A DNA stretch of 64,000 nucleotides from Pantanalinema sp. (GTDB lineage: Bacteria > Cyanobacteriota > Sericytochromatia > S15B-MN24 > UBA4093), in assembly GCA_036704125.1 (NCBI GenBank), contig DATNQI010000021.1, forward strand, positions 1-64,000, in the 5' to 3' direction. The notes under the pieces were generated by a model that saw only the letters and a list, made by a program, of their open reading frames with translations, had not been told where the DNA came from and searched no databases. The translations under genes were made by a program, and so were the position numbers. Positions within the stretch are counted from its first letter, which is position 1, and the number at the start of each line of letters is the position of its first letter. Shown here one piece after another: positions 5,797-43,807 of this stretch.

Positions 5797-6704
5797 GCGC
5801 GCCGACCTTCTCCCAGGACGTGCGCAGCCACCTCGCGCAGGTCGAGACCGACCGGCCCTGCTGCCAGAAGGCGCTGCTGCTGGCCCTGTTGTCGGTGTGC
5901 GCCGCCGAGGCCGCCGAGAGTCACCTGATCGTCTCGCTCGAGAACGGCGCCGTGGCCAGGCTCCTGTTCAAGCTCGCCAAGCTGTCGCTCGGGGTCGTCC
6001 CCCACCTGCACGACCCCGATCCCTCGCAGCGCGGGGCCCACTACCGGCTGGTGCTCCCCATCCCCGCCGAGGGGCTCGCCGGAGTCATGAGCCTCGACGA
6101 GCTGCAGCGCACCATCCGGCGCCGATCCTGCTGCCGCCGCTCCTTTCTGCGCGGGGCCTTTCTCGGGTGCGGCTCGATCGTCAACCCCGAGCGGGCCTAC
6201 CACCTGGAGTTCACCGCCTCGGGCGAGCTGAGCTCGTGGATCGTCGTGCTGCTCCAGGACGAGGGGGTCAAGGCGGGCCACTACCGCCGCTCGGGTCACA
6301 CCCACTGGACCGCCTACGTCAAGAAGAGCGAGGACATCGCCACCTTCCTCACGCTGGTGGGGGCGGTGCCCGCCCTCTTGGCCCTCGAGGAGCTGCTCAT
6401 CAGCCGCGACCTCAAGAACAACGTGCAGCGGGCGGTCAACTGCGAGACCGCGAACCTGGACCGGACCGTCTCGACCGCCCAGGACCAGATCGCCCGCATC
6501 GAGTCGCTCGAGAACACCGGCCGCCTCAAGGCCCTGCCCGCCGAGCTCGTCGAGACGGCGACGATCCGGCGCGAGAACCCCTTCGCGAGCCTCGCCCAGC
6601 TCGCCGAGCTCCACTCTCCCCCCCTCTCCAAGTCCGCCATCAACCACCGCCTGCGCAGGATCGCCCAGCTGGCCGATGGCGCTGATTCTTCGCAGCACCA
6701 GTAG
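5793..6704 (+). CDS. whiA: DNA-binding protein WhiA
   Basis: 303 residues. WhiA proteins combine a LAGLIDADG-homing-endonuclease-like fold without nuclease activity and a C-terminal helix-turn-helix. The characteristic block is RRSFLRGAFLGCGSIVNPERAYHLEF near the middle, and the C-terminus contains NHRLRRIAQLAD, the HTH recognition region. In actinobacteria it is a sporulation regulator; in Bacillus it affects chromosome segregation and division. The chosen start, ATG 5793, overlaps the yvcK stop by four bases, a translational coupling arrangement. The Cys pairs near residues 28 and 110 are unusual but I attach no function to them. Confidence 0.93.
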   Translation: MSAPTFSQDVRSHLAQVETDRPCCQKALLLALLSVCAAEAAESHLIVSLENGAVARLLFKLAKLSLGVVPHLHDPDPSQRGAHYRLVLPIPAEGLAGVMSLDELQRTIRRRSCCRRSFLRGAFLGCGSIVNPERAYHLEFTASGELSSWIVVLLQDEGVKAGHYRRSGHTHWTAYVKKSEDIATFLTLVGAVPALLALEELLISRDLKNNVQRAVNCETANLDRTVSTAQDQIARIESLENTGRLKALPAELVETATIRRENPFASLAQLAELHSPPLSKSAINHRLRRIAQLADGADSSQHQ

Positions 6705-6706
6705 GG

Positions 6707-6712
6707 TATAAG
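6707..6712 (+). promoter_or_regulatory. -10 box seven bases before the first TPR gene
   Basis: TATAAG lies exactly seven bases upstream of the ATG at 6720. There is no Shine-Dalgarno sequence between them. A transcript from this box would begin at or next to the ATG, i.e. be leaderless. No clear -35 is visible. Confidence 0.5.
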
Positions 6713-6719
6713 ACGCTCG

Positions 6720-8168
6720 ATGACCAACCAGGAAATTCTCAAAGCCGGCCATGCGGCCTTCGAGGCGGGCGACGACGCGACCGCGATCGCCACGCTCAGC
6801 CACGTCACCGCCAAGGACCCTGCGGCCTACGCCCAGGCCCTCCTGCTGCTGGGCCGCGCCTACGCGCGCACCCGGCAGCTGGACCAGGCCCGGATCTGCC
6901 TCGAGGAATCCTACAACACCCGCCAGAGCGCACGCACCCTCTATCACCTGGGCGAGTGCCTCTACCAGATGGGCGATCGCGAGGGGGCCGAGTCGTGCCT
7001 CTCCAACGCGGCCCAGTCGGACGAGACCCTGACCGACGCCTACATCCTGCTCGGGGTGGTGCGCAAGGAGGCGGGGCGGTACAAGGAAGCGGTTCCCTGC
7101 TTCGACAAGGCCCTCAAGAACGACCCCAAGGCGGTGGTCGCGCGCTACCAGATCGCCCAGGTCGCCTTCGAGCTTGGCGACATGCAGCGCGCCGCCGCCC
7201 AGGCCCACCTGGTGCTGCAGCACTCGGCGGACTTCGCCCCGGCGCACCTGCTCTTGGCCAACATCACCCTCAAGCTGGGCGACTACCGCCAGGCCGCCGT
7301 CGAGTTCTGCCGGGTGCTCGAGCTCAACGGCCCCGACGCCGCGATCTACATGTCGCTGGGGCGCGCCTTCGCGCACCTTCACGACCTGCCCCAGGCCATC
7401 CAGGCGTTCGCGGCGTCCATCGAGATGGAGCCCGACAACGAGCTGGCGCTCTCGGCCGTCGCGCGCCTCGCCGAGCGCCACGGCGACAAGGAGACGGCCG
7501 GCAAGTACTTCCGGCAGCTCCTGCGCTTCCCCAACTCGGCCCAGCTCGCGGGCGACGCCCTGGTGCGGCTTGGGCTGCCCGCCGAGGCTCCTCCCGCCCC
7601 CAAGGCCGAGAAGAAGGGGAAGAAGGGCGCCAAGCCGGGCGCCCAGAGCGCGAGCGCCGCCAAGCCCAAGGGCCCCGCGGTCTCCTTCTCGCCGCCCAAG
7701 ATGATCGACAGCAAGGCGCTGCCCAAGTCGCTGCCCTCCCAGGCGCCCGGCCGGGTCATCGGCGCGAGCAAGACCGCCCCGCTCGGCAAGACCCCGACCA
7801 GCAACTCGGGTCCCTTGCCCCCCCGGCCCCTGCCGCAGCAGGCCCCCCCGACCGCGCCGCTCGACAACCTCTTCGACGGTCTCAACCGCCTCATCGACCG
7901 GACCCCGCTCAAGGACGCCATCGACCTCTCGGGCGTCCAGGAGACGGCCAACGCCATGGTCCGCAGCGTGACCGATCGCCTCAACCCGGACGTGGTCAAC
8001 AAGGTCAAGACCGGGATCCTCGCCAAGCTGCAACCGGGTAACGCCCCTCATCCGCCGAGCCCGAGCGCGCCGACCCGGCCGCAGCAGCCCCCCGCCCGGC
8101 CGCCCCAGCAGGGCGGGCCCGGGGCGCCGGCCAAGCCTACGACACCCCGCCCCAAGCCGAAGGGCTAG
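6720..8168 (+). CDS. TPR protein with Pro/Lys-rich linker and C-terminal helix (paralogue 1)
   Basis: 482 residues. Residues 1 to about 285 are tetratricopeptide repeats, recognisable by pairs such as YLGRAYARTRQLDQA and AYILLGVVRKEAGRYKEAV. Then comes a low-complexity linker rich in Lys, Pro and Ala (about 290-390), then an amphipathic helical stretch (DNLFDGLNRLIDRTPLKDAI and on), and a Pro/Gln-rich tail. There is no signal peptide or membrane segment, so it is probably a cytoplasmic scaffold. It is followed after 7 bases by a homologue of the same layout: both share phrases such as TLTDAYIL, NDPKAV and AIQAF/AIKAF. The function is unknown. Confidence 0.85.
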   Translation: MTNQEILKAGHAAFEAGDDATAIATLSHVTAKDPAAYAQALLLLGRAYARTRQLDQARICLEESYNTRQSARTLYHLGECLYQMGDREGAESCLSNAAQSDETLTDAYILLGVVRKEAGRYKEAVPCFDKALKNDPKAVVARYQIAQVAFELGDMQRAAAQAHLVLQHSADFAPAHLLLANITLKLGDYRQAAVEFCRVLELNGPDAAIYMSLGRAFAHLHDLPQAIQAFAASIEMEPDNELALSAVARLAERHGDKETAGKYFRQLLRFPNSAQLAGDALVRLGLPAEAPPAPKAEKKGKKGAKPGAQSASAAKPKGPAVSFSPPKMIDSKALPKSLPSQAPGRVIGASKTAPLGKTPTSNSGPLPPRPLPQQAPPTAPLDNLFDGLNRLIDRTPLKDAIDLSGVQETANAMVRSVTDRLNPDVVNKVKTGILAKLQPGNAPHPPSPSAPTRPQQPPARPPQQGGPGAPAKPTTPRPKPKG

Positions 8169-8175
8169 CTGAGCG

Positions 8176-9600
8176 ATGGCGACCCCAGGTCCGAGCAACC
8201 GGGATCTGCTGAAGGCGGCGACCGACGCCTTCCAGGCCCAGGCCTACCCGGAGGCCATCGCGGCCCTCGGCAGGGTCACCGGGGAGGACCCCGCGATCCA
8301 GGCCCAGGCGCTCGCCCTCTTGGGTCGCTGCAAGACCCGCACCGGCGCCTTCGACGAGGCGGCGCGGGTCCTGGAGCAGGCCATGGCGCTGACAAGCACC
8401 CCCTTGACCCGGTACTACCTGGGCGAGTGCCGCTTCCAGCAGGGGGATCACGAGGCCGCCCTCGAGGAGCTCTCGGCGGCCATCTCGCTCGATCCCACCC
8501 TGACCGACGCCTACATCCTGATCGGGACCATCCACCGCGCGAAGGGCCGGTACGACGAGGCCACCAAGGCCCTCAACACGGCCCTGCGCAACGACCCCAA
8601 GGCCGTCGCCGCCCGCTTCCAGCTGGCCCAGGCCGCCTACGACGCGGGGGACCTTCAGCGCGCCACCTCGCAAGCCTACCTCATCATCCAGCAGCAGGAG
8701 GACTTCGCGCCGGTCCACCTGCTCCTGGGGCACTGCGCCCTGCGGCTCAACGACTTTCGCCAGGCCGCATACGAGTACTGCCGGGTGCTCCAGCTGCAGG
8801 ATCCGACCCTCGAGGTCTACGAGGGCCTGGGGCGCGCCTTCGCCAACCTGAAGGACTTTCATCAGGCGATCAAGGCCTTCGAGGGGGTGATCGCCATGGC
8901 CCCCGACAACGAGATGGCCTACGTGGCGGCCGCGCGCCTGTGCGATCGCCAGGGCGACAAGGAGAAGGCGATCAAGCTGTGGCAGCGCGCCGCGCAGTTC
9001 CCCAAGTACGCCCAGCTGGCGAACGAGGCGCTCGCCAAGCTCGGTTCGCAGGCCGCGGGCGGATTGGCGGCGGGATCCACGGCCGGAACCGGCGCCAAGA
9101 AGAAGGGCAAGGCCCCAGCCAGGCCCCCGGCCGCACCGGCAATCGACGCGGCCAACCTGCCGCGCGACTTCGAGCCGCCACGCCAGCTCGATCGCAGCAC
9201 CCTTCCCCAGCGCGCCCCCGCCCACATGCCCACCGCCCCGCTGACGAGCCACGCCGCGGGCACCCTCTCCCTCGCCTCGCGCCAGGCCCCGAAGACCCAG
9301 CCCTTCACCGCCCCGCTCAGGCCCGTGCCCCCTCTCCCGCCCGAGCCCCTGACGGTCAAGGAGAAGATCACCAGCGCCCTCGACCAGATGCTGCGCCCGT
9401 CCCTCGAGGCGATGGCCTCGCTCATGGCCAGGACGCGAAAGCAGACGACCGACGAGGCTGCGACTGGCGACGGCGCCCACGAGACCATCGCCGCCATGAT
9501 GGCAAAGCGCGCCGCCGAGCAAGCACCCGCGCCGGAGGCGCCTCCGGCCAGGCCGAAGGCGCCGGGGACCCCGGCGCCCGGAAAGCCGAAACGGCGCTGA
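8176..9600 (+). CDS. TPR protein (paralogue 2, tandem duplicate)
   Basis: 474 residues, same architecture as the preceding gene: TPR array to about residue 290, a Pro/Ala-rich linker, and a helical C-terminal stretch (EKITSALDQMLRPSLEAMAS) before a Pro-rich tail. Repeat-by-repeat correspondence with the neighbour (for example DPTLTDAYILIG, LRNDPKAVAARFQLAQ, CRVLQL, MAPDNEMAY) shows an old tandem duplication. The linkers have diverged freely. The ATG at 8176 is 7 bases after the upstream stop, so the two are co-transcribed. The gene ends 4 bases from the convergent rsmE. No enzymatic domain is seen. Confidence 0.85.
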   Translation: MATPGPSNRDLLKAATDAFQAQAYPEAIAALGRVTGEDPAIQAQALALLGRCKTRTGAFDEAARVLEQAMALTSTPLTRYYLGECRFQQGDHEAALEELSAAISLDPTLTDAYILIGTIHRAKGRYDEATKALNTALRNDPKAVAARFQLAQAAYDAGDLQRATSQAYLIIQQQEDFAPVHLLLGHCALRLNDFRQAAYEYCRVLQLQDPTLEVYEGLGRAFANLKDFHQAIKAFEGVIAMAPDNEMAYVAAARLCDRQGDKEKAIKLWQRAAQFPKYAQLANEALAKLGSQAAGGLAAGSTAGTGAKKKGKAPARPPAAPAIDAANLPRDFEPPRQLDRSTLPQRAPAHMPTAPLTSHAAGTLSLASRQAPKTQPFTAPLRPVPPLPPEPLTVKEKITSALDQMLRPSLEAMASLMARTRKQTTDEAATGDGAHETIAAMMAKRAAEQAPAPEAPPARPKAPGTPAPGKPKRR

Positions 9601-35014: not shown

Positions 35015-35467
35015 ATGACAAGCCCCGCCGCCTTGACCCAGGTCACGCTCGCCATCTTCCGGGCGAATGGTCGCCTGCTCGAAGCAGGCGATGCGCTCGT
35101 GGCCCCGCTGAACCTCACCAGCGCGCGGTGGCAGGTACTGGGCGCGGTCGCCCTCTCCTCGGGGGCTCTGAGCGCGCCGCAGATAGCGGCGGCGATGGGC
35201 GTGACCCGCCAGGGGGCGCAAAAGCAGCTCAACCTCCTCGTGAAGGACGGGCTGCTCGTCCAGCGCAAGAATCCCCTTCACGCGCGCTCGCCACTCTACG
35301 CCCTCTCCGCGCGGGGGGCTCAGACCTACGATGCAGCGGAGAAGCTCTGGATGAAACGGGCTGAGGACCTGGCCGCGGACCTGCCCAGCGAGGCGCTGCA
35401 GGCGACCTTACACGTTCTCGAGGCGATCGTCGAGCGGCTACATCGTCCCACCCCTGCAAAGGAGTAA
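35015..35467 (+). CDS. MarR family transcriptional regulator
   Basis: 150 residues, winged helix. SAPQIAAAMGVTRQGAQKQLNLL is the recognition part and ARSPLYALSARG the wing. GGAGG lies before ATG 35015. MarR proteins bind short palindromes as dimers and usually repress themselves and neighbours; a matching inverted repeat overlaps the promoter. The effector is unknown. The yceI-like gene starts 4 bases after the stop, so both share control. Confidence 0.93.
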   Translation: MTSPAALTQVTLAIFRANGRLLEAGDALVAPLNLTSARWQVLGAVALSSGALSAPQIAAAMGVTRQGAQKQLNLLVKDGLLVQRKNPLHARSPLYALSARGAQTYDAAEKLWMKRAEDLAADLPSEALQATLHVLEAIVERLHRPTPAKE

Positions 35468-35471
35468 CCGA

Positions 35472-36086
35472 ATGAAACGTTCCTTCATCCAGGCCCTCGG
35501 CATCGCTTGTGCCCTGTTCGGGCTCTTCGGCCCGAAAGGTCTTCCCGCCTCGGCGGCGCCCTTCGAGCGCCGCTTCGCCATAGAAGAGGGGAGCCAGGTG
35601 TCGTACCACGTGACCGCGAAGATCGTCGGGCTCATCGACGACGCCATCGCGGGCGCCAATCGCAGGGTGAAGGGCGAGATCGTCCTGGTTGCTCCCAACC
35701 AGGCCACTTGCTGGGCGCAAGCCGACGCGAGCGACTTCGACTCGGGCCTGAGGGTGCGCGACGAGCACGTCGCGGAGATCCTCGGCGTCCCGCGGACCCC
35801 CTCGATCCGGTTCGTCCTCGATCGACTGGAGGGTTTCGACGCCGGGCGCGAAAAGGGCCGGGTCACCGCGACGGGAACGCTCAGCGTCCGAGGACGAGAT
35901 CACGCGCTGCGGATGCCCCTCGACTATCAGGTGAGCGGTGACAGGGTGCGGATCCAAGGGGAGGCGCCGCTGCGCTTCTCGGATTTCGGAATCGAGCCGC
36001 CGGTGGTCGGCCTGGTGTTCAAGCGGGCACCCGACGCCCTCACGATCCGGGTGTCGCTGATTGCGCGGGAAGTCGAAGCGAAGTAG
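35472..36086 (+). CDS. YceI family periplasmic protein
   Basis: 204 residues with signal peptide MKRSFIQALGIACALFGLFG, probably cut at ASA-AP. The remaining part is a YceI-like lipocalin-type barrel: VKGEIVLVAPNQATCWAQ, FDSGLRVRDEHVAEILG and FSDFGIEPPVVGLVFK. YceI proteins bind isoprenoid or other lipids and are often induced by stress. Its coupling to a MarR regulator suggests induction by a small molecule. Ends next to a hairpin shared with the convergent MFS gene. Confidence 0.88.
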   Translation: MKRSFIQALGIACALFGLFGPKGLPASAAPFERRFAIEEGSQVSYHVTAKIVGLIDDAIAGANRRVKGEIVLVAPNQATCWAQADASDFDSGLRVRDEHVAEILGVPRTPSIRFVLDRLEGFDAGREKGRVTATGTLSVRGRDHALRMPLDYQVSGDRVRIQGEAPLRFSDFGIEPPVVGLVFKRAPDALTIRVSLIAREVEAK

Positions 36087-36101: not shown

Positions 36102-36136
36102 CGAGGCGCCGGCCGAATCACGCGGCCGGTGCCTCG
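36102..36136. terminator. Hairpin between yceI-like gene and MFS gene
   Basis: A 14-bp stem with one G-T pair (36102-36115 with 36123-36136). It follows the YceI stop by 15 bases and overlaps the last codons of the MFS gene, so it can end both transcripts; on the minus side a CTTTT follows. Confidence 0.65.
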
Positions 36137-37335
36137 CTCATGGTTTCGAAGCCGCGAACGCCCGGCAGCAGAGGCAGCAGCGCCCCCACCAGGGCGAGCA
36201 TCACCCCGGATGCGGTGAAGATGGCGCTTGGCGGCACGCGGGCCGCGAGGACCCCGACCAGCGCGTATGACGCCGGCATCACCCCCAGGACCACCGCGGT
36301 GAGCAGGCCCATGAAGCGCCCCATCTGCTCGACGGGCACGGCGCGCTGGAAGGCCGCGAGCGTCACGATGTTGAGCGCGCTCAGGGCGGCCCCCAGGATG
36401 AAGAGCCCCCCGAGGAAGCCTACGAACTGAGGCATAAGCCCCATCAGGGCGAGACACGCCCCTTGCAGCACGAACGACCCCGCGATGAGCGCGATCTTCC
36501 GCCCCACGTCGCCACGCTTCACCAGGACCAGCGCCGCTGCGATCATGCCGACGCCGAGCGCCCCCTCTAGCATGCCGAGCCCGCTCGCCCCCGCCCGGAA
36601 GACATCCCTGGCAAAGACCGGCAGCAGGACGGGGATGGGCGCCAGGAAGAGGTTCGCCACCGCGAAGGCCCCGAGCAGCGAGGCGATCGCGGGGCGCTCC
36701 GAAAGGGTCCGGGCGCCTCCTTTGAGGGTCTCCCAGTACGACTCTCCCTGCGGCGGCACGACGTGCGAGCGCCGGCTCATCGCCATCAGGGCGACGCCCG
36801 ACACCGTGAAGGTCGCCGCGTTCAAGAGGAACGCCGAGGGCGCCCCGGTCGCGGCCACCAGAAGACCGCCAAGGGCGGGCCCCAGGATGGCGGCCATCTG
36901 GGTGGTCAGCTCCAAAGCCGAGTTGGCCTTGAGCAGCGCGTCCTGCTCGACCACCTCCGGCACGATGGCGAGCCCCGCCGGGGTGAAGGCCGCCCCGATG
37001 CAGGAGAGCAGGACCGCCAGGAAGAACAGGAGCGGCAGGGGCAGCAGGTGGAAGTAGGCGAGGGCGGCCATCCCCGTCACCAAAATGGCGCGCGCCCAGT
37101 CGCAGGCGAGCATGAGCCGGCGCCGGTCCATGCGATCCGCGAGCGCGCCGGCGAAGGGGCCGACCACGATCATCGGCAGGCTGGTCGCCACCATGAGGGC
37201 GCCGGTCATGGCCGCCGAGCCGGTGGTGTCGAGCACCCACCAGACCATGGCGAGCTGGTGGACGCGATCGCCGAACTGGGAGGCCGCCTGCCCGAACCAG
37301 AGCAGGCGAAAGTCGCGGCTAAACGGCGCCGGCAT
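36118..37335 (-). CDS. Major facilitator superfamily exporter
   Basis: 405 residues with about 12 hydrophobic helices. It starts MPAPFSRDFRLLWFGQAASQ and has the loop 2-3 signature ALADRMDRRRLML. It is of the MFS_3/EntS-like kind that exports siderophores or other small molecules. It is the last gene of the LuxC/LuxE/PaaK operon and overlaps its predecessor by 17 bases, so the product of that operon is the likely cargo. Whether it instead provides self-protection cannot be told. Confidence 0.9.
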   Translation of the reverse strand: MPAPFSRDFRLLWFGQAASQFGDRVHQLAMVWWVLDTTGSAAMTGALMVATSLPMIVVGPFAGALADRMDRRRLMLACDWARAILVTGMAALAYFHLLPLPLLFFLAVLLSCIGAAFTPAGLAIVPEVVEQDALLKANSALELTTQMAAILGPALGGLLVAATGAPSAFLLNAATFTVSGVALMAMSRRSHVVPPQGESYWETLKGGARTLSERPAIASLLGAFAVANLFLAPIPVLLPVFARDVFRAGASGLGMLEGALGVGMIAAALVLVKRGDVGRKIALIAGSFVLQGACLALMGLMPQFVGFLGGLFILGAALSALNIVTLAAFQRAVPVEQMGRFMGLLTAVVLGVMPASYALVGVLAARVPPSAIFTASGVMLALVGALLPLLPGVRGFETMSEAPAA

Positions 37336-40042
37336 CGCGGTCCCTGTCCTCCTGGCGCTGGTCGGCCCGGCCGGGCTTGACCAGCCGCTGGTCGATGATC
37401 CGCTTGACCTTGCCGGTGCGTTCCAGGCGCGGCAGGCCGCCGGCAGGCAGGACCTCGAACCTGAGATCCGCGAGCAGGCCGTTGGCGAGCGCCTCGCCGA
37501 GCAGCGGGATCTTCCGAGAGACCCCGGTCGCCAGCAGGCCCTGAAGCAGGGAGACGTCGATGGCAGGATCCTCGCCCACCAGCTCGGCCCGCACCACCAG
37601 GTGGTCCTGGTGGCCTTCGAGCTTCGCCTCGAGCTGGATCATGGAGCTGAGGCCCTCGACGGTGCTCGCGGCCTGCTGGAAGTCGGCGTAGGGGAAGACG
37701 TGGCCCGCGACGATCACCACGTCGTCGCTGCGCCCGAGCAGCTCCAGGCGCGGCATGGAGCGACCGCAGGGGCAGTCGCCTTCGACCCAGCGGCCGAGAT
37801 CCCCTATCTTGTACCGGATGAGCGGCATGATTCGCCGGTTGAGGTTGGTCACGACCACCTCGCCGAAGCCGCCCGGGCCTGCCGGCTCGCGGGTGCGCCG
37901 GTCGATCAGCTCCACGTACTGGTGGTCGGCGTGGATGTGGTGCTCGGCCCCCTTCGAGTGGGGACACTGGAAGCCGATGGGGCCCGCGTCCACCGTGCCG
38001 TAGCCGATCGAGCCGATGACCTCGACGCCGAAGGTGCGCTTCAGGTACTCCTGCTCGCTCGGGTAGAGGTGCTCGCCGGTGTAGAAGACCTTGCGGATCC
38101 GGATCCCCTCGGGGTCGGCCTTGATGGCGTCGAAGACCCGCAAGAGCCAGGACGGCAGGCCCATCAGGGTGTCGATGCCGTAGGCCCTCAGGAAGTAGGG
38201 GATCTGCTCGGGCGGCACCGAGCTGGTGAAGGGGAAGCTGTTGCAGCCGACGATCTCGAGAGCCCGGTTGACCGAGAGGAACGAGCCGTAGAGGCCCCCC
38301 GAGTAGAAGAGGTTGGCCACGCGATCGCCCCGGCGCAGACCCACCGCGTAGGCCCCGCGCGCCGCGCGCGCCATGTCGTCCTCGTAGTCCTCGAACGAGA
38401 AGACCGAGAGCTTGGGCGAGGCGCTCGACCCGCCGCTGCGCAGGAAATGGCCGCCCATGGGGGCTTGGGTGAACAGGCCCTCGCCGACGGGCGGGGTGTG
38501 CAGGGCCACGTCGTCCCGCTCCATCAGGGGCACCTTCGCCCAGTCCTCGGGCGACGCGACTCGGATGCCCTCGAGCCGATCCCGGTGGTACGGCGCCCGG
38601 GGCGCGAGCTCGGAGACGAGGCGCAGGCGGCGGCCGAAGGAGAGGGCGTCCAGCTCCTCGGGCCCCAGCCACTCGGCGCCGTCGAAGCGATCGTTCGCCT
38701 CGCTGAAGCCGATGGAGACCCACTTGACCAGCTCGTTTAGGGCGATCAGGCCGTCGTGCGGCTCGCCCGGCGTCCCGCCGCTCATCTCGGCGAGCGGAGT
38801 CACGCGCAGGACCCCCGCGGCCAGGAGCCTGTCGGCGATCCCGAAAAGGCGCTCGGGCGGAATCGAGACGCCCGCCGTCTGGAGGGAGTCGCCGTAGGGC
38901 GCGAGGTGAGCGGGCAGCTCGGAAAGATCGTTCAGGCGCTTGACGTAGAGGGTGCGGAACAAGGGCGAGAGCTTGAAGGCGGGGTCCTTCTCGACGATGA
39001 CGGTCCAGTGGGGGGCGTTGCCCGGCGTGTACAGCTCGGCGGTGCCCATGGCCGCGTCGAAGCGCGCCATCTCGCGCTCCTTGGTCACCTCGGCGCGCTC
39101 CTGCATGGTGAGCGGGCCCTGCGGCAGCTCGCGCTGCACGGTGGAGAGGGCGTCCTGCAGGCTTGCGACGAAGGCCCGGGTGGGCGCGCCGTCCTCGGTG
39201 GGGTCCTCGAGGTAGAGGACCTGAGGACTTGAGCAGGCGTTCTGGTCCCAGAGGGCGAGCGAGCGCGCCATGTCCATGGCCACCTCGGGGTGGAGGAGGC
39301 GCTCCTTGGCGATCGCGGCGAACGAGACCTTGGGGCCGTACTCGACCAGGTGGGCCTTGAGCGAGAGGCCCTCGCGGTACTCGCGGACCACCTCTTCGCC
39401 GCCCCACACCACGATCCCGTCGCAGTGCTGCTGGAAGACCTTGTGGAGCCGGCTCTTGCCGCCTGACCACGAGAGGATGGCGATCGAGTCGGCTACCGCT
39501 CCGTCAGGATCGCACTCCTTGAGGGATCGGGCGAAGAGCAAGGGGAAGAGGGGCGCCTTGCTCGCGGCCTTGAGGAGGTTCACGTTCTTGGTGATGACCC
39601 CCTCGATCATGCTGAGGATGCCGCCCGTGAAGACGTTTCCGCTCGAGACGTGCAGGACCACCCCGCGCGGGACCGCCCGCTTGAAGGCCGCCCCGTTGCC
39701 CCCTTGCCACATGTCCAGGGCGTCCAGCGAGCCGAGTTCAAGGCGGATCTTGGGCTCGAGGTAGGCGCGCGAGAGCGCCATCTTGAGGCTACCGAGCTCC
39801 TGGGCGACCATCTCGCTCGAGAAGCCGATCTGCTCGGGGATGCGCCGCATGACCTCCTGGCAGCCGGCATAGGCGGGATCCGCCCAGAGCCTGGCCGCGC
39901 GGTCGAACACGCTCAGGATGCGGTCGATTGGAACGCGCGAAAGGCGCTCCTTGCGCTCCTGGGCCTCGACCAGGATGTCGCGCACCGTCTGTTCGGTGAG
40001 CTCACCTTTCAGCGTTCGCCCGAAAACGTAGTGTTCACGCAT
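37319..40042 (-). CDS. LuxC-like acyl-CoA reductase fused to a PaaK-like adenylate-forming ligase
   Basis: 907 residues in two parts. Residues 1 to about 440 are a LuxC-type fatty acyl-CoA reductase (aldehyde dehydrogenase fold): VVLHVSSGNVFTGGILSMIE, ILSWSGGKS and the active-site Cys in DQNACSSPQVLYLED. Residues about 455-890 are a phenylacetate-CoA ligase-like enzyme: HFLRSGGSSASPKLSVFSFE, GYGTVDAGPIGFQCPH, RYKIGDLGR and CPCGRSMPRLELLGR, closely similar to the separate ligase gene at 41212. It would thus activate an acid and reduce the thioester or protein-bound acyl group to an aldehyde in one polypeptide. The fusion is unusual. The gene starts 9 bases after the LuxE-like stop. Confidence 0.92.
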   Translation of the reverse strand: MREHYVFGRTLKGELTEQTVRDILVEAQERKERLSRVPIDRILSVFDRAARLWADPAYAGCQEVMRRIPEQIGFSSEMVAQELGSLKMALSRAYLEPKIRLELGSLDALDMWQGGNGAAFKRAVPRGVVLHVSSGNVFTGGILSMIEGVITKNVNLLKAASKAPLFPLLFARSLKECDPDGAVADSIAILSWSGGKSRLHKVFQQHCDGIVVWGGEEVVREYREGLSLKAHLVEYGPKVSFAAIAKERLLHPEVAMDMARSLALWDQNACSSPQVLYLEDPTEDGAPTRAFVASLQDALSTVQRELPQGPLTMQERAEVTKEREMARFDAAMGTAELYTPGNAPHWTVIVEKDPAFKLSPLFRTLYVKRLNDLSELPAHLAPYGDSLQTAGVSIPPERLFGIADRLLAAGVLRVTPLAEMSGGTPGEPHDGLIALNELVKWVSIGFSEANDRFDGAEWLGPEELDALSFGRRLRLVSELAPRAPYHRDRLEGIRVASPEDWAKVPLMERDDVALHTPPVGEGLFTQAPMGGHFLRSGGSSASPKLSVFSFEDYEDDMARAARGAYAVGLRRGDRVANLFYSGGLYGSFLSVNRALEIVGCNSFPFTSSVPPEQIPYFLRAYGIDTLMGLPSWLLRVFDAIKADPEGIRIRKVFYTGEHLYPSEQEYLKRTFGVEVIGSIGYGTVDAGPIGFQCPHSKGAEHHIHADHQYVELIDRRTREPAGPGGFGEVVVTNLNRRIMPLIRYKIGDLGRWVEGDCPCGRSMPRLELLGRSDDVVIVAGHVFPYADFQQAASTVEGLSSMIQLEAKLEGHQDHLVVRAELVGEDPAIDVSLLQGLLATGVSRKIPLLGEALANGLLADLRFEVLPAGGLPRLERTGKVKRIIDQRLVKPGRADQRQEDRDRDAGAV

Positions 40043-40051
40043 CGCAGTCCC

Positions 40052-41188
40052 CTACTTCAAAAGCTGGCTGGCCGAGATGGCGCAGCCCTTGTTCTTGCGC
40101 GTCCCGGCCCGCCCGATGATCGTCACGGTCGGCATCGAGCGCCCGCACGGGCAGTCCCCCTGAAGAGTGGCCAGATCGCTGGTCAGCAAGGACATGGCGG
40201 GCATCGCGAGGTTGTAGGGCGTCACCAGGTTCAAGAAGCCCACCTCTCCATACGGCAGCACCTCGAGCGTCTCGACGTCCCGCACGTAGGCCCTGGCGAA
40301 GGTCGGCACGTGGAACCGATGGTGTTCGCACTGGAGATAGGGCACCCCGTGCTCGACCATGCCGTAGCCGTCGCGCACGTTTCCTGCCGGGATCCCCAGG
40401 TATTCCTCGACCTCGGCCACGAAGGCCTCGGGCTCGATGCGCTCACTTTCCGACTTCTTCCACCCGCCGCCGGTCAGGACGTAGGAGTCGGGCCCGAGGT
40501 CGAGCTTGGGCATGTTCAGCTCGCGCATCCGCGACACGATCCGGTGCAGGAAGGCGGGAAATCCCAGGATCCGCACCGGCGCGCCCTCTTCGGCGTAGGC
40601 TTGCAGCACTTCGAGGGCCTCGGCCTCGCGGAAGGCGAAGGCCTGGGTCGCCTCGTCCCAGCGCAGGGCGTGATACGAGCGCTTCTTCGGCGCGTACTTG
40701 GTGATGTTCGAGTCGGTGTAGGCCGTCCCCACGTTCTTGGCCTCGCTCGGGTCGTAGGCGAAGATCAGGTAGTTGGTCAAAAGGTCCTGCCGCACCAGCC
40801 CCATGGCCTCGTGGGCCAGATCCACCATGCCGAGCCCGCGCGCGAGCGACGCCGCGTCGAAGAAGATCTGGCTCTTCTGGCCCCCGGTGCCGCTGGAAGT
40901 GAGGTTGAGCGCGATTTGATCCTTCTCGATGGACAGCAGCTCGTACTTCTTGAAGACGTTCACGAAGACGTGCGGCACCCTCGGCACGTCTTCGATGGTC
41001 TCGAGGTCCGAAAGGGAGAAGCCTTGCTGCCGGCAAAGCTCGGCGTAGGGGCCGTGATGCGCCAGGTGCCACTCGAGCGCCTCGGCGAGCGCCGCGACGA
41101 AGGCCGCGTCGTGCGCGGGGCTTTCGTCGTAGATGCCCGAGAGGGCCATGTAGCGGTCAAGGGCGGGGGTGTCGGTCAAGGTCGGCAT
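40052..41188 (-). CDS. LuxE-like acyl-protein synthetase
   Basis: 378 residues, like luminescent-bacteria LuxE. It activates a fatty acid as acyl-AMP and passes the acyl group to an enzyme cysteine or LuxC. Motifs: FKKYELLSIEKDQIALNLTS, the P-loop-like SSGTGGQKSQIFFD, LTGGGWKK and DGYGMVEHGVPYLQCE. It ends with CPCGRSMPTVTIIGRAGTRK. ATG 41188 follows the family start. It lies between the separate PaaK-like gene and the LuxC fusion. The substrate need not be a long fatty acid. Confidence 0.9.
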   Translation of the reverse strand: MPTLTDTPALDRYMALSGIYDESPAHDAAFVAALAEALEWHLAHHGPYAELCRQQGFSLSDLETIEDVPRVPHVFVNVFKKYELLSIEKDQIALNLTSSGTGGQKSQIFFDAASLARGLGMVDLAHEAMGLVRQDLLTNYLIFAYDPSEAKNVGTAYTDSNITKYAPKKRSYHALRWDEATQAFAFREAEALEVLQAYAEEGAPVRILGFPAFLHRIVSRMRELNMPKLDLGPDSYVLTGGGWKKSESERIEPEAFVAEVEEYLGIPAGNVRDGYGMVEHGVPYLQCEHHRFHVPTFARAYVRDVETLEVLPYGEVGFLNLVTPYNLAMPAMSLLTSDLATLQGDCPCGRSMPTVTIIGRAGTRKNKGCAISASQLLK

Positions 41189-41211
41189 GGATTCCCTCGC
41201 TAGCGGCCTCT

Positions 41212-42549
41212 TCAGGAAGAGGCGAGTCCGTTCAAGCTGCGATCGAGTGTGCGTTTCACCTTGCCCGTGACGGGCACCCGCGGGATCTCGCCCAGGTCGA
41301 AGACGGACACCCCCAGATCGAGCACGTGGCCGGTCTGGATCAGCTTGGCGAGATCCGGCTTGTGACGCAGGACGGCAGCGCGCAGGCGCCAGGCGAGATC
41401 CGCGCGATCGCCCGTGTAGCCCGGCCGCGCCTCGACCTTGACCGTCAGGCGGTCCTTCATCAGGTCCCGCTCCTTGACCAGCTGAACGTTGGTGGTCAGC
41501 TCGCTCAGCTCGGCGACCGCCCGGATCACCTCGTCGTAGGCCACCGTCGCGATCCCGATCCGCAGGTCGTCGTTGCGGCCCAAGAGCTCGAAGCGCGGGA
41601 AGGTCCGGCCGCAGGGGCAGGGCCCCGGCACCATCCGGGCCATGTCGCCCACCGCGTAGCGGATGGTCGGCATCAAGAAGCGATCGAGCTCGGTCACGAG
41701 CACGAGGCCCTCCTCGCCCTCGCTCACCGGCTGGTAGGTCACGGGGTCGACCACCTCGAAATAGACGTGGTCCGAGTGGACGTGGTGGACGGCCCCCTCT
41801 GCGTGGGGGCACTGGAAGCCGATGAGGCCCGTGTCCACCGTCGCGTAGCCGCCGGAGGCGACGACCTTGAGGTTGGGCAGGCGATCGTGAAGCCAGGTGC
41901 GCTCCTCGACGTAGAGGTGCTCGCCGCCGTAGAAGATCTTCTCGATCCTGGGCAGGACCTCGTCGGGCAGCTTCTGGACCACCTCGAGCACCCACGAGGG
42001 GATGCCCATCAGGGTGTTGATGGCGAAGCGACCCATGTTCTGCGAGACCGTCTCGACCGGCGCGTTGCCCGTGAAGGGGAAGTTGACGCAGTTCATCTCC
42101 TCGAGCACCCGGTTGATGAACACGAAGGACGAGTAAAGGCTGCCCGCGACGAAGAGGTTGCCCACCCAGTCGGTGGAGCGCAGGCCGGCGGCCCCGTAGG
42201 TGCGCTTGAACAGATCGGTCACGTGCCGGAACTCGTCGTAGCTGAAGGCCGAGAACTTGGGGCTGCCCGTGGTGCCGCCGCTGCGCAGGACGTAGGCACC
42301 AGCCAAAGGCGCGGTCAACAGCGCGTCGCTGACCGGCGGCGAGTTCTGGACGAGCAGCTCCTTGGTCAGGACCGGGATGGCCTCCGGGGTCCAGGCCCCG
42401 TCGAGATCGATCCCCTTCAGGTGGTCGCGGTAGAAAGGAGAGCTCGCGCGCGAGAGCGCGAGCAGCGCCGCGAGCTTCTTTCGCTGCAGGCCCGAGAGCA
42501 CCTCCGGGGCGAGGGTCTCGACGCCCTCGAGCGGGATGTCCGCGATCAA
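41212..42549 (-). CDS. PaaK-like adenylate-forming ligase
   Basis: 445 residues. Phenylacetate-CoA ligase family: YVLRSGGTTGSPKFSAFSYD (P-loop), SGGYATVDTGLIGFQCPH, RYAVGDMARM, CPCGRTFPRFELLGRNDD and the C-terminal GKVKRTLDRSL. Much of it aligns by eye with the second half of the LuxC fusion, so the operon holds two related ligases. Residue pattern does not reveal the acid used. ATG overlaps the GNAT stop by four bases. Confidence 0.92.
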   Translation of the reverse strand: MIADIPLEGVETLAPEVLSGLQRKKLAALLALSRASSPFYRDHLKGIDLDGAWTPEAIPVLTKELLVQNSPPVSDALLTAPLAGAYVLRSGGTTGSPKFSAFSYDEFRHVTDLFKRTYGAAGLRSTDWVGNLFVAGSLYSSFVFINRVLEEMNCVNFPFTGNAPVETVSQNMGRFAINTLMGIPSWVLEVVQKLPDEVLPRIEKIFYGGEHLYVEERTWLHDRLPNLKVVASGGYATVDTGLIGFQCPHAEGAVHHVHSDHVYFEVVDPVTYQPVSEGEEGLVLVTELDRFLMPTIRYAVGDMARMVPGPCPCGRTFPRFELLGRNDDLRIGIATVAYDEVIRAVAELSELTTNVQLVKERDLMKDRLTVKVEARPGYTGDRADLAWRLRAAVLRHKPDLAKLIQTGHVLDLGVSVFDLGEIPRVPVTGKVKRTLDRSLNGLASS

Positions 42550-43718
42550 ACCAGCGCCTCGCCTTCGTCCTGCGGATCGGCGAAGTGCATCTTGACCACC
42601 AGGTTGCGGTACTCGGTGTTCTGGAGGTAGACGTCGAGGAACTGGCGATCGCGCGGGGTCATCTGGACGTTCGAGAAGTTGAGGGGCAGGGTCGAGCGCG
42701 CGAAGACCAGGTAATCCCGCCGCTCGCCCTCGTGCTCGTCCATGCTGGGGAAGTAGGCGCAGGGCAGGAACTGAGCGGCGAGCGCCGCGCGCTGGATCTC
42801 CGGCTCGTAGGCGTCCACCAGGATCTCCAGGTACTCAACGCCCACCTTTCGGGCAGCGTCGAACACGGCACCGAGCGCGATCTTGAGGTCGGCCACGCTC
42901 GCTTTGAGGCCGACCATCACCCCGTGGCCGTCCTTGCCCTCGTAGTTGACGTAGGCCCGCACCGCACCGTCCTCGGTCTGCAGGAGGAAGTTGGGGGTGT
43001 GGAAGGGGTAGAAGTCGAAGAGCAGCTCGCCTGCCGCCTGGGAAGCCTCGTAAGCCTGCTTGACGGCGTCCCCGCGCACGATCCGCAGGCGCGGCACGTC
43101 GCGCTGAGGCATGATCTCCGAGGGCTCCAGGTTGAACGTGTGCCGGATGATCCGGTAGAAGCCCTCGACCTCGGGGATCAGCTTGGGCAGGCGCTTGCGC
43201 TTGGCGAAGGCCTGCGGGTGGAAGATGGCGTTGAGGCCGTGGGTCTCGTAATCGGCCAGACGGTGAACGTTGGGGAAGATCCCGAGGCTGACGAAGCCCA
43301 GCTTCTTGAGGAGCTTGCTCGGGCCGATGCTCGCGGTGCGGGTGGTGGCGTAGATGACGTCCACCAGGCGATCGCGGTGCATCAGGGCGTTGATGCCGCT
43401 CTGGATGGTCACGTACATCAGCTCGTGGCGGCGGAAGTCGGGGTGCACCACGGCCGCGTAGACCTTGCCGTTGCGCTGGCCGGGGTCCACGTCGAAGATG
43501 ACCGAGCCCACCACCCGGCCCTCGCAGATGTTGATCAGCCAGTAGCAGTTGGGATCCAGCAGGGCGCGATCGCGGTCCTCCTCGCGGTTGACCACGTCGA
43601 GGGTGTACGCCCCCTGGTAAACATCGTCGTAGAGCGCGAAGATCGCCTGGCTGTCGTCGGGGGTCGCCCGGCGCATCTCGACTTCGCGGCCGTCCTCTAG
43701 GGGAATCATCCGTTCCAT
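42546..43718 (-). CDS. GNAT family N-acetyltransferase, two-domain
   Basis: 390 residues. The N-terminal part has acetyl-CoA-binding features (VVGSVIFDVDPGQRNGKVYA, VHPDFRRHELMYVTIQSGIN, LLKKLGFVSLGIFPN); the C-terminal 190 residues look like a second, degenerate GNAT fold. First gene of the operon. There is no Shine-Dalgarno; instead TAAAAT ends six bases before the ATG, so the operon mRNA may be leaderless. An amine-acylating step in the same pathway is plausible, for instance acylation of an amino compound before or after reduction. Confidence 0.85.
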   Translation of the reverse strand: MERMIPLEDGREVEMRRATPDDSQAIFALYDDVYQGAYTLDVVNREEDRDRALLDPNCYWLINICEGRVVGSVIFDVDPGQRNGKVYAAVVHPDFRRHELMYVTIQSGINALMHRDRLVDVIYATTRTASIGPSKLLKKLGFVSLGIFPNVHRLADYETHGLNAIFHPQAFAKRKRLPKLIPEVEGFYRIIRHTFNLEPSEIMPQRDVPRLRIVRGDAVKQAYEASQAAGELLFDFYPFHTPNFLLQTEDGAVRAYVNYEGKDGHGVMVGLKASVADLKIALGAVFDAARKVGVEYLEILVDAYEPEIQRAALAAQFLPCAYFPSMDEHEGERRDYLVFARSTLPLNFSNVQMTPRDRQFLDVYLQNTEYRNLVVKMHFADPQDEGEALV

Positions 43719-43722
43719 GTCA

Positions 43723-43807
43723 CCATTTTACCCAAGGCTGCATGCTTGTACCAGTCACGGCGCTGCAAGTCCCCCATTTTACCCAAGGCTGAATGGTTGT
43801 ACCAGTC
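43723..43807 (-). repeat. Two direct 34-bp repeats with 51-bp period, upstream of the GNAT-LuxC operon
   Basis: Copies 43723-43756 and 43774-43807 are identical at 32 of 34 positions. On the minus strand each reads GACTGGTACAA, then a variable pair, then CAGCCTTGGGTAAAATGG. TAAAAT is a possible -10 in both; that of the proximal copy (43730-43725) ends six bases before the GNAT ATG. The array looks like a duplicated promoter or operator. Confidence 0.8.

Follow-up and report, generated by a model that had tools for sequence, protein, structure and literature searches.

The window analyzed here is a 64,000-nucleotide stretch of a Pantanalinema sp. genome of the class Sericytochromatia (phylum Cyanobacteriota; assembly GCA_036704125.1, contig DATNQI010000021.1). 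It contains five adjacent minus-strand genes at 36118-43718 that place relatives of the LuxC and LuxE proteins beside two PaaK-like ligases, a tandem GNAT acyltransferase, and an MFS exporter. The genes are transcribed in the order GNAT, PaaK, LuxE, LuxC·PaaK, and MFS_3, where LuxC·PaaK is a LuxC reductase fused to the second ligase. The features of the locus are as follows (aa, amino acids):

43723-43807, strand not assigned: upstream region with a 34-base direct repeat (two copies, 94% identical), candidate control region of the operon
42546-43718, minus strand: tandem-GNAT acyltransferase, 390 aa, first gene of the operon (Acetyltransf_1)
41212-42549, minus strand: stand-alone PaaK-like AMP-forming ligase, 445 aa, TTG start (NCBIfam and PDB PaaK matches)
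40052-41188, minus strand: LuxE-like acyl-protein synthetase, 378 aa (PF04443; PDB 7xc6 LuxE)
37319-40042, minus strand: LuxC acyl reductase (about residues 37-441) fused to a second PaaK-like ligase (about residues 460-890), 907 aa (PF05893; 7xc6 LuxC; 4r1l PaaK)
36118-37335, minus strand: MFS_3 family exporter, 405 aa (PF05977)

The operon is tightly packed. GNAT and PaaK overlap by 4 bases (42546-42549), LuxC·PaaK and MFS_3 overlap by 17 bases (37319-37335), and the remaining intergenic gaps are 9 and 23 bases. The coordinates match exactly those of the original prediction, which had described five closely spaced genes with these overlaps, and the domain matches agree with it as well. The host assembly (3.5 Mb in 102 contigs) has one LuxC above the cut-off genome-wide. 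A PF00296 search of the genome returned a single luciferase-like monooxygenase, a lone gene on a different contig that was judged by eye from its sequence to be YhbW/MsnO8-like; no adjacent luxAB pair is present, as had been predicted. The LuxD family PF02273 had no match in the genome, a weak negative given that the control search matched nothing either.

The LuxE-like protein matches the Pfam family PF04443 (E = 1.3e-40) and the LuxE chain of 7xc6 (E = 8.6e-26). It carries an acyl-carrier-type cysteine near its C terminus, Cys369 in KNKGCAIS, and 7xc6 LuxE has KGCSLS at that place. The LuxC domain matches PF05893 (E = 5.2e-85), and its catalytic cysteine is Cys270 in the motif DQNACSSPQ. These sites are conserved; the counts for SSGT, Cys369, Cys270, and Lys878 refer to homologs from the phyla sampled by genome, with plasmid copies left out. 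SSGT occurs in 51 of 51 LuxE homologs, and Cys369 is a cysteine in all 49 homologs having that residue; the LuxE of the Streptomyces plasmids described below retains the equivalent cysteine. Cys270, Gln267, and His429 are each present in 42/42 LuxC·PaaK homologs, as are the C-terminal catalytic lysine Lys878 and Asp748 of the fused ligase domain, where SGG of the AMP-binding loop is found in 40-42 of 42. The loop GG-TG-PKF and Lys430 of the stand-alone ligase are invariant in 8 orthologs. In other words, the motifs for acid activation and reduction are intact, including the LuxC cysteine that the original prediction had singled out.

Despite these matches, the proteins stand well apart from the characterized families. 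LuxC reaches 146 bits against the 750 of its NCBIfam lux equivalog and LuxE 122 against 550, and both are distant superfamily members, not lux equivalogs. The AMP-binding match of both ligases falls under the Pfam gathering score; both clearly match PaaK models and solved PaaK structures, at 103-124 bits versus NCBIfam PaaK equivalog cut-offs of 646-700, a level at which they can be called PaaK-like only. A comparison of two genomes of one genus gave ratios of nonsynonymous to synonymous substitution (dN/dS) of 0.14-0.22 for GNAT, PaaK, LuxE, and LuxC, and the operon genes are under purifying selection. An apparent triple fusion of LuxE, LuxC, and PaaK in one genome (G007, an open reading frame of 1236 aa) was rejected because its upstream part is a wrong-frame reading and the real LuxE lies in another frame; a comparable frame of 1218 aa in L071 was attributed to the same effect from its coordinates.

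The first protein of the operon matches Acetyltransf_1 over residues 26-142 (Pfam, E = 8e-6). An AlphaFold2 model built from 34 orthologs (pLDDT 82) is a tandem of two GNAT folds, whose best Foldseek matches are PaiA (1tiq) and the tandem GNAT 2wpw. A LuxI/FeeM-type identity was considered and is unsupported by these matches. Across 57 homologs, a YATTRT motif is nearly invariant, and position 99 of the CoA loop (Glu99 here) is acidic in most, which is unusual. The exporter matches PF05977 (MFS_3; E = 5.5e-40) and transporters of the EntS/Mef type, all under curated cut-offs; a match to the lysophospholipid transporter LplT is weak and lies below the EntS and Mef matches.

Four Sericytochromatia genomes (G001, G003, G006, and G007) carry all five genes in an identical order. 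Pieces of the set occur in four genomes with broken or split assemblies (G005, G008, G009, and G010), and G002 has a variant of the set with a different GNAT. GNAT is full-length in 8 of the 18 genomes of the class; LuxC·PaaK is present in 10 class genomes and in none other of the 292 Cyanobacteriota searched. A scan of the GNAT alignment against about 85,000 species genomes yielded 38 loci, and in nearly every one with enough contig the GNAT was followed by LuxE and then by LuxC·PaaK. This core of GNAT-LuxE-LuxC·PaaK was found in Sericytochromatia, Riflebacteria, Elusimicrobiota, Bdellovibrionota, and the ADurb.Bin243/UBP16 lineage. Within phyla the GNAT is patchy: it was found in 27 of 40 sampled genomes of the phylum of the Riflebacteria record, in about 26 of 199 of that of the Elusimicrobiota record (29 at threshold, three of them very weak), and, as long matches, in 6 of 58 of that of the Oligoflexales record. 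Among all loci examined, 52 contain both LuxE and LuxC·PaaK, and every one of them has LuxE immediately upstream of LuxC·PaaK in the same orientation. Three relatives of the GNAT (L099, L101, and L110) were seen without other set genes on the stretch available.

Across these loci the components occur in five main ARRANGEMENTS. Sericytochromatia have GNAT-PaaK-LuxE-LuxC·PaaK-MFS, and most Riflebacteria and Elusimicrobiota loci have GNAT-LuxE-LuxC·PaaK. The order PaaK-hGNAT-LuxE-LuxC·PaaK-MFS-GNAT is found in L079 of the Bdellovibrionota and L103 of the Elusimicrobiota, with L100, L102, and L105 similar. Here hGNAT denotes an additional GNAT whose N-terminal part weakly resembles HATPase/RsbW; it matches no curated family above cut-off and lies directly before LuxE in three phyla:

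L103, 2623-4173: hGNAT
L079, 18819-20276: hGNAT
L039, 12011-13270: hGNAT

All five components are also carried, as PaaK-MFS-GNAT-LuxE-LuxC·PaaK, on plasmids of Streptomyces sp. NBC_00158, Streptantibioticus cattleyicolor, and Streptomyces sp. BHT-5-2; the Streptomyces carriers are megaplasmids. The fifth order, LuxE-LuxC·PaaK-PaaK-GNAT with a GNAT that is hGNAT-like, is found on IncF conjugative plasmids of Salmonella enterica (L117/L113; CP054717, CP053580), where the GNAT is full in one plasmid and short in the other. The DNA of the Salmonella LuxC·PaaK had no match in 5,426 E. coli genomes. A homologous MFS is also present in L078-L081, L094, L100, and L102-L106, and in L102 two adjacent tandem-GNAT copies (6297-8515) were observed downstream of LuxC·PaaK and MFS. 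That the same components recur in several arrangements is good evidence that they belong to a single pathway. A search for this neighborhood in other genomes, which had been proposed with the original prediction, showed the same components recurring in distant phyla in several gene orders, and the set is a conserved, partly plasmid-borne module in at least six lineages. The label "orphan" that had been given to the operon holds for luxAB only and fails for the set itself.

Phylogenetic trees point to both shared inheritance and transfer. On the GNAT tree and on the LuxC·PaaK tree, the latter made by a quick method, Sericytochromatia form a single clade, as do Riflebacteria, and there are signs of transfer among other loci. 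Two loci from records titled Erysipelotrichia and Methylomirabilis (L056 and L057) fell inside the Riflebacteria clade and are probably mislabelled or mis-binned metagenome-assembled genomes. On a ligase tree, made by a quick method and with weak deep support, stand-alone and fused ligases are almost wholly separate (2 label changes versus 16 in shuffles). The stand-alone ligase of the present operon sits among its stand-alone counterparts from other loci and not with the fused domain. In both ligase classes, the loci from Streptomyces and Salmonella cluster with four from Elusimicrobiota. Because stand-alone ligases lie apart from fused ones across phyla, the second ligase is a shared component of the set.

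How might these proteins work together? With moderate confidence, we propose that the operon encodes a small, mobile, stand-alone, non-luminous biosynthetic pathway for acid activation, reduction, acyl transfer, and export, built around a LuxE/LuxC acid reductase. LuxE would first adenylate a carboxylic acid and load the acyl group on its own Cys369 as a thioester. The acyl group would then pass to Cys270 of LuxC and be reduced with NAD(P)H to an aldehyde. These two steps are proposed because the chemistry of LuxE and LuxC is established and the residues are intact, and a reduction of acids dependent on ATP and NAD(P)H is the predicted activity of LuxE with LuxC·PaaK. The fused PaaK domain may either load LuxC itself or activate a second acid. 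An acyl group would then be activated by the stand-alone PaaK and transferred with the tandem GNAT, an amine being the most plausible acceptor, and the MFS_3 protein would export the product. The gene identities, operon layout, intact catalytic residues, conserved linkage, purifying selection, and lack of luxAB are shown by the sequence, whereas the direction of the chemistry, the acyl transfer by the GNAT, and the export are inferred. As enzyme logic, the original prediction that the set activates, reduces, possibly N-acylates, and exports an acid product draws support from the intact residues, the lack of luxAB, and the repeated co-occurrence of the genes.

Several observations weigh against this pathway. 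The operon does not by itself set the fate of the aldehyde, as its surroundings contain no alcohol dehydrogenase, carrier protein, or other tailoring gene. In many loci of Riflebacteria and Elusimicrobiota, the core has no MFS or stand-alone ligase beside it, which argues that these two are not obligatory in cis and that the core consists of an acid reductase plus the GNAT. Moreover, the acidic residue at position 99 lies in the CoA-phosphate loop, so the GNAT may not be a simple acyl-CoA transferase. A bolder version of the proposal, which we regard as speculative, is that the operon represents an undescribed class of horizontally spread gene sets that contain no polyketide or peptide synthetases and would produce an acyl-derived signal or antibiotic for export. 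In that version, LuxC·PaaK would be a carboxylic acid reductase of a new, one-chain type, and the acyl donor of the GNAT would be an enzyme-bound thioester or adenylate and not acyl-CoA.

Among the closest known systems is the LuxC-LuxE fatty acid reductase of bioluminescent bacteria (7xc6), which shares adjacent genes, a LuxE adenylating and acyl-carrier subunit with a C-terminal cysteine, and the LuxC catalytic cysteine. The present operon differs from it in lacking luxAB, in the PaaK ligase at the C terminus of LuxC, in a PaaK-like CPCG motif in LuxE, and in the added GNAT, second ligase, and MFS. Carboxylic acid reductases (CAR) likewise adenylate an acid and reduce it to an aldehyde, which in the present operon may occur in one LuxC·PaaK polypeptide. 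However, CAR has an adenylation-carrier-reductase (A - carrier - R) order with a short-chain-type reductase, whereas the present protein has the order reductase-ligase, a LuxC-type reductase with a cysteine, and no carrier domain. The mel2 locus of Mycobacterium marinum is also non-luminous and combines the LuxC-like MelK with LuxA-, LuxG-, and LuxH-like genes and no clear LuxE (PMC1793995); the present operon, in contrast, has LuxE and none of those three. A plasmid of Lactiplantibacillus plantarum (L118, NZ_CP035118) carries adjacent LuxE and LuxC with no luxAB beside them, but its LuxC is unfused, and an SDR oxidoreductase and an SLC23 permease take the place of PaaK, GNAT, and MFS; that set possibly converts an acid to an alcohol.

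Two other non-luminous settings bear on a glycan role. The tetronate branch of the Vibrio cholerae O1 O-antigen has the LuxE-domain protein RfbN (PMC4772473), and polar-flagellin glycosylation islands of Aeromonas carry luxE/luxC plus carrier-protein and ketoacyl-reductase genes (PMC7874193). In an acyl-sugar pathway like the tetronate branch, and perhaps like that of the Aeromonas islands, LuxE/LuxC would reduce a small hydroxy- or dicarboxylic acid, a ligase would re-activate it, and the GNAT would attach it to an amino sugar of the envelope or a glycan. Both settings pair LuxE-type activation with AMP ligases or transferases, and their parts list resembles that of the present operon. However, they sit in sugar/glycan clusters, whereas no carrier protein, alcohol dehydrogenase, ketoacyl reductase, sugar-nucleotide, or glycosyltransferase gene was found in the operon, its scanned window neighbors, or the annotated recurrent neighbors elsewhere. 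The recurrent MFS also suggests a free small molecule, and an acyl-sugar pathway is unlikely.

A lipid pathway, in which long-chain fatty acids would be reduced to fatty aldehydes or alcohols destined for envelope lipids such as ether lipids or wax esters, with the MFS as a lipid flippase, appears improbable. Long-chain acids are the substrates of the closest characterized LuxC/LuxE enzymes (7xc6), and the weak LplT matches of the exporter point the same way. However, its EntS and Mef matches are stronger, no lipid-assembly gene is linked, and the patchy distribution inside phyla is more in keeping with an accessory pathway than with a core lipid. Even less can be said for detoxification or catabolism, in which the ligases would capture aromatic or fatty acids as CoA esters, LuxC would act in salvage, and the MFS would expel the excess. 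PaaK proper serves phenylacetate catabolism, but the annotated neighbors include no linked gene for ring oxidation, beta-oxidation, or a thioesterase, and the acyl-carrier cysteine that LuxE keeps in 49/49 homologs would be needless for a catabolic ligase. Bioluminescence or a remnant of it, suggested by the LuxC and LuxE homology, can be practically dismissed, as the original prediction had done, because the genome has no luxAB pair (and so none under common control with the operon), the fused ligase, GNAT, and MFS are foreign to lux operons, and the set is conserved as a unit under purifying selection.

The region upstream of the operon contains the 34-base direct repeat (43723-43756 and 43774-43807; 51 bases start to start), which lies between the GNAT start and a divergent C39-like gene. 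No such repeat arose in 100 shuffles of the window, and a search allowing up to 3 mismatches did not find it elsewhere in the genome. It is a candidate operator or control region; no sigma-70-like promoter match was found in the upstream region. At the other end, genes for a MarR-family regulator and a YceI-like protein (35015-36086) converge on the 3' end of the operon. They were not seen as recurrent neighbors, and the two proteins are a possible regulator and lipid-binding partner of the operon. Conserved neighbors elsewhere were considered as clues to the pathway and discarded, since the annotated ones are unrelated housekeeping or mobile genes (YggT, DivIVA, TPR, M29 peptidase, integrase, GIY-YIG, and histidine kinase). 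An acyl carrier protein identity for neighbors of 88-90 aa was ruled out, as these are YggT and GIY-YIG.

No curated family reaches its cut-off for the set, and no paper found by full-text searches describes it or assigns the operon to a known product, the finding that the original prediction had said would overturn it. One paper with LuxC and PaaK was discarded as a precedent because lux serves there only as a reporter. Novelty is not proven, because most subscription papers and all preprints lay outside the literature search.

To our knowledge, LuxC and LuxE have been known almost exclusively for their part in light production. Their retention in a compact set that also has two ligases, an exporter, and a tandem GNAT, and that occurs both in unrelated phyla and on Streptomyces and Salmonella plasmids, points to an unrecognized acid-to-aldehyde pathway. 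The Streptomyces carriers open the set to direct genetic and metabolomic testing, and the LuxC-ligase fusion may be a useful new acid reductase.

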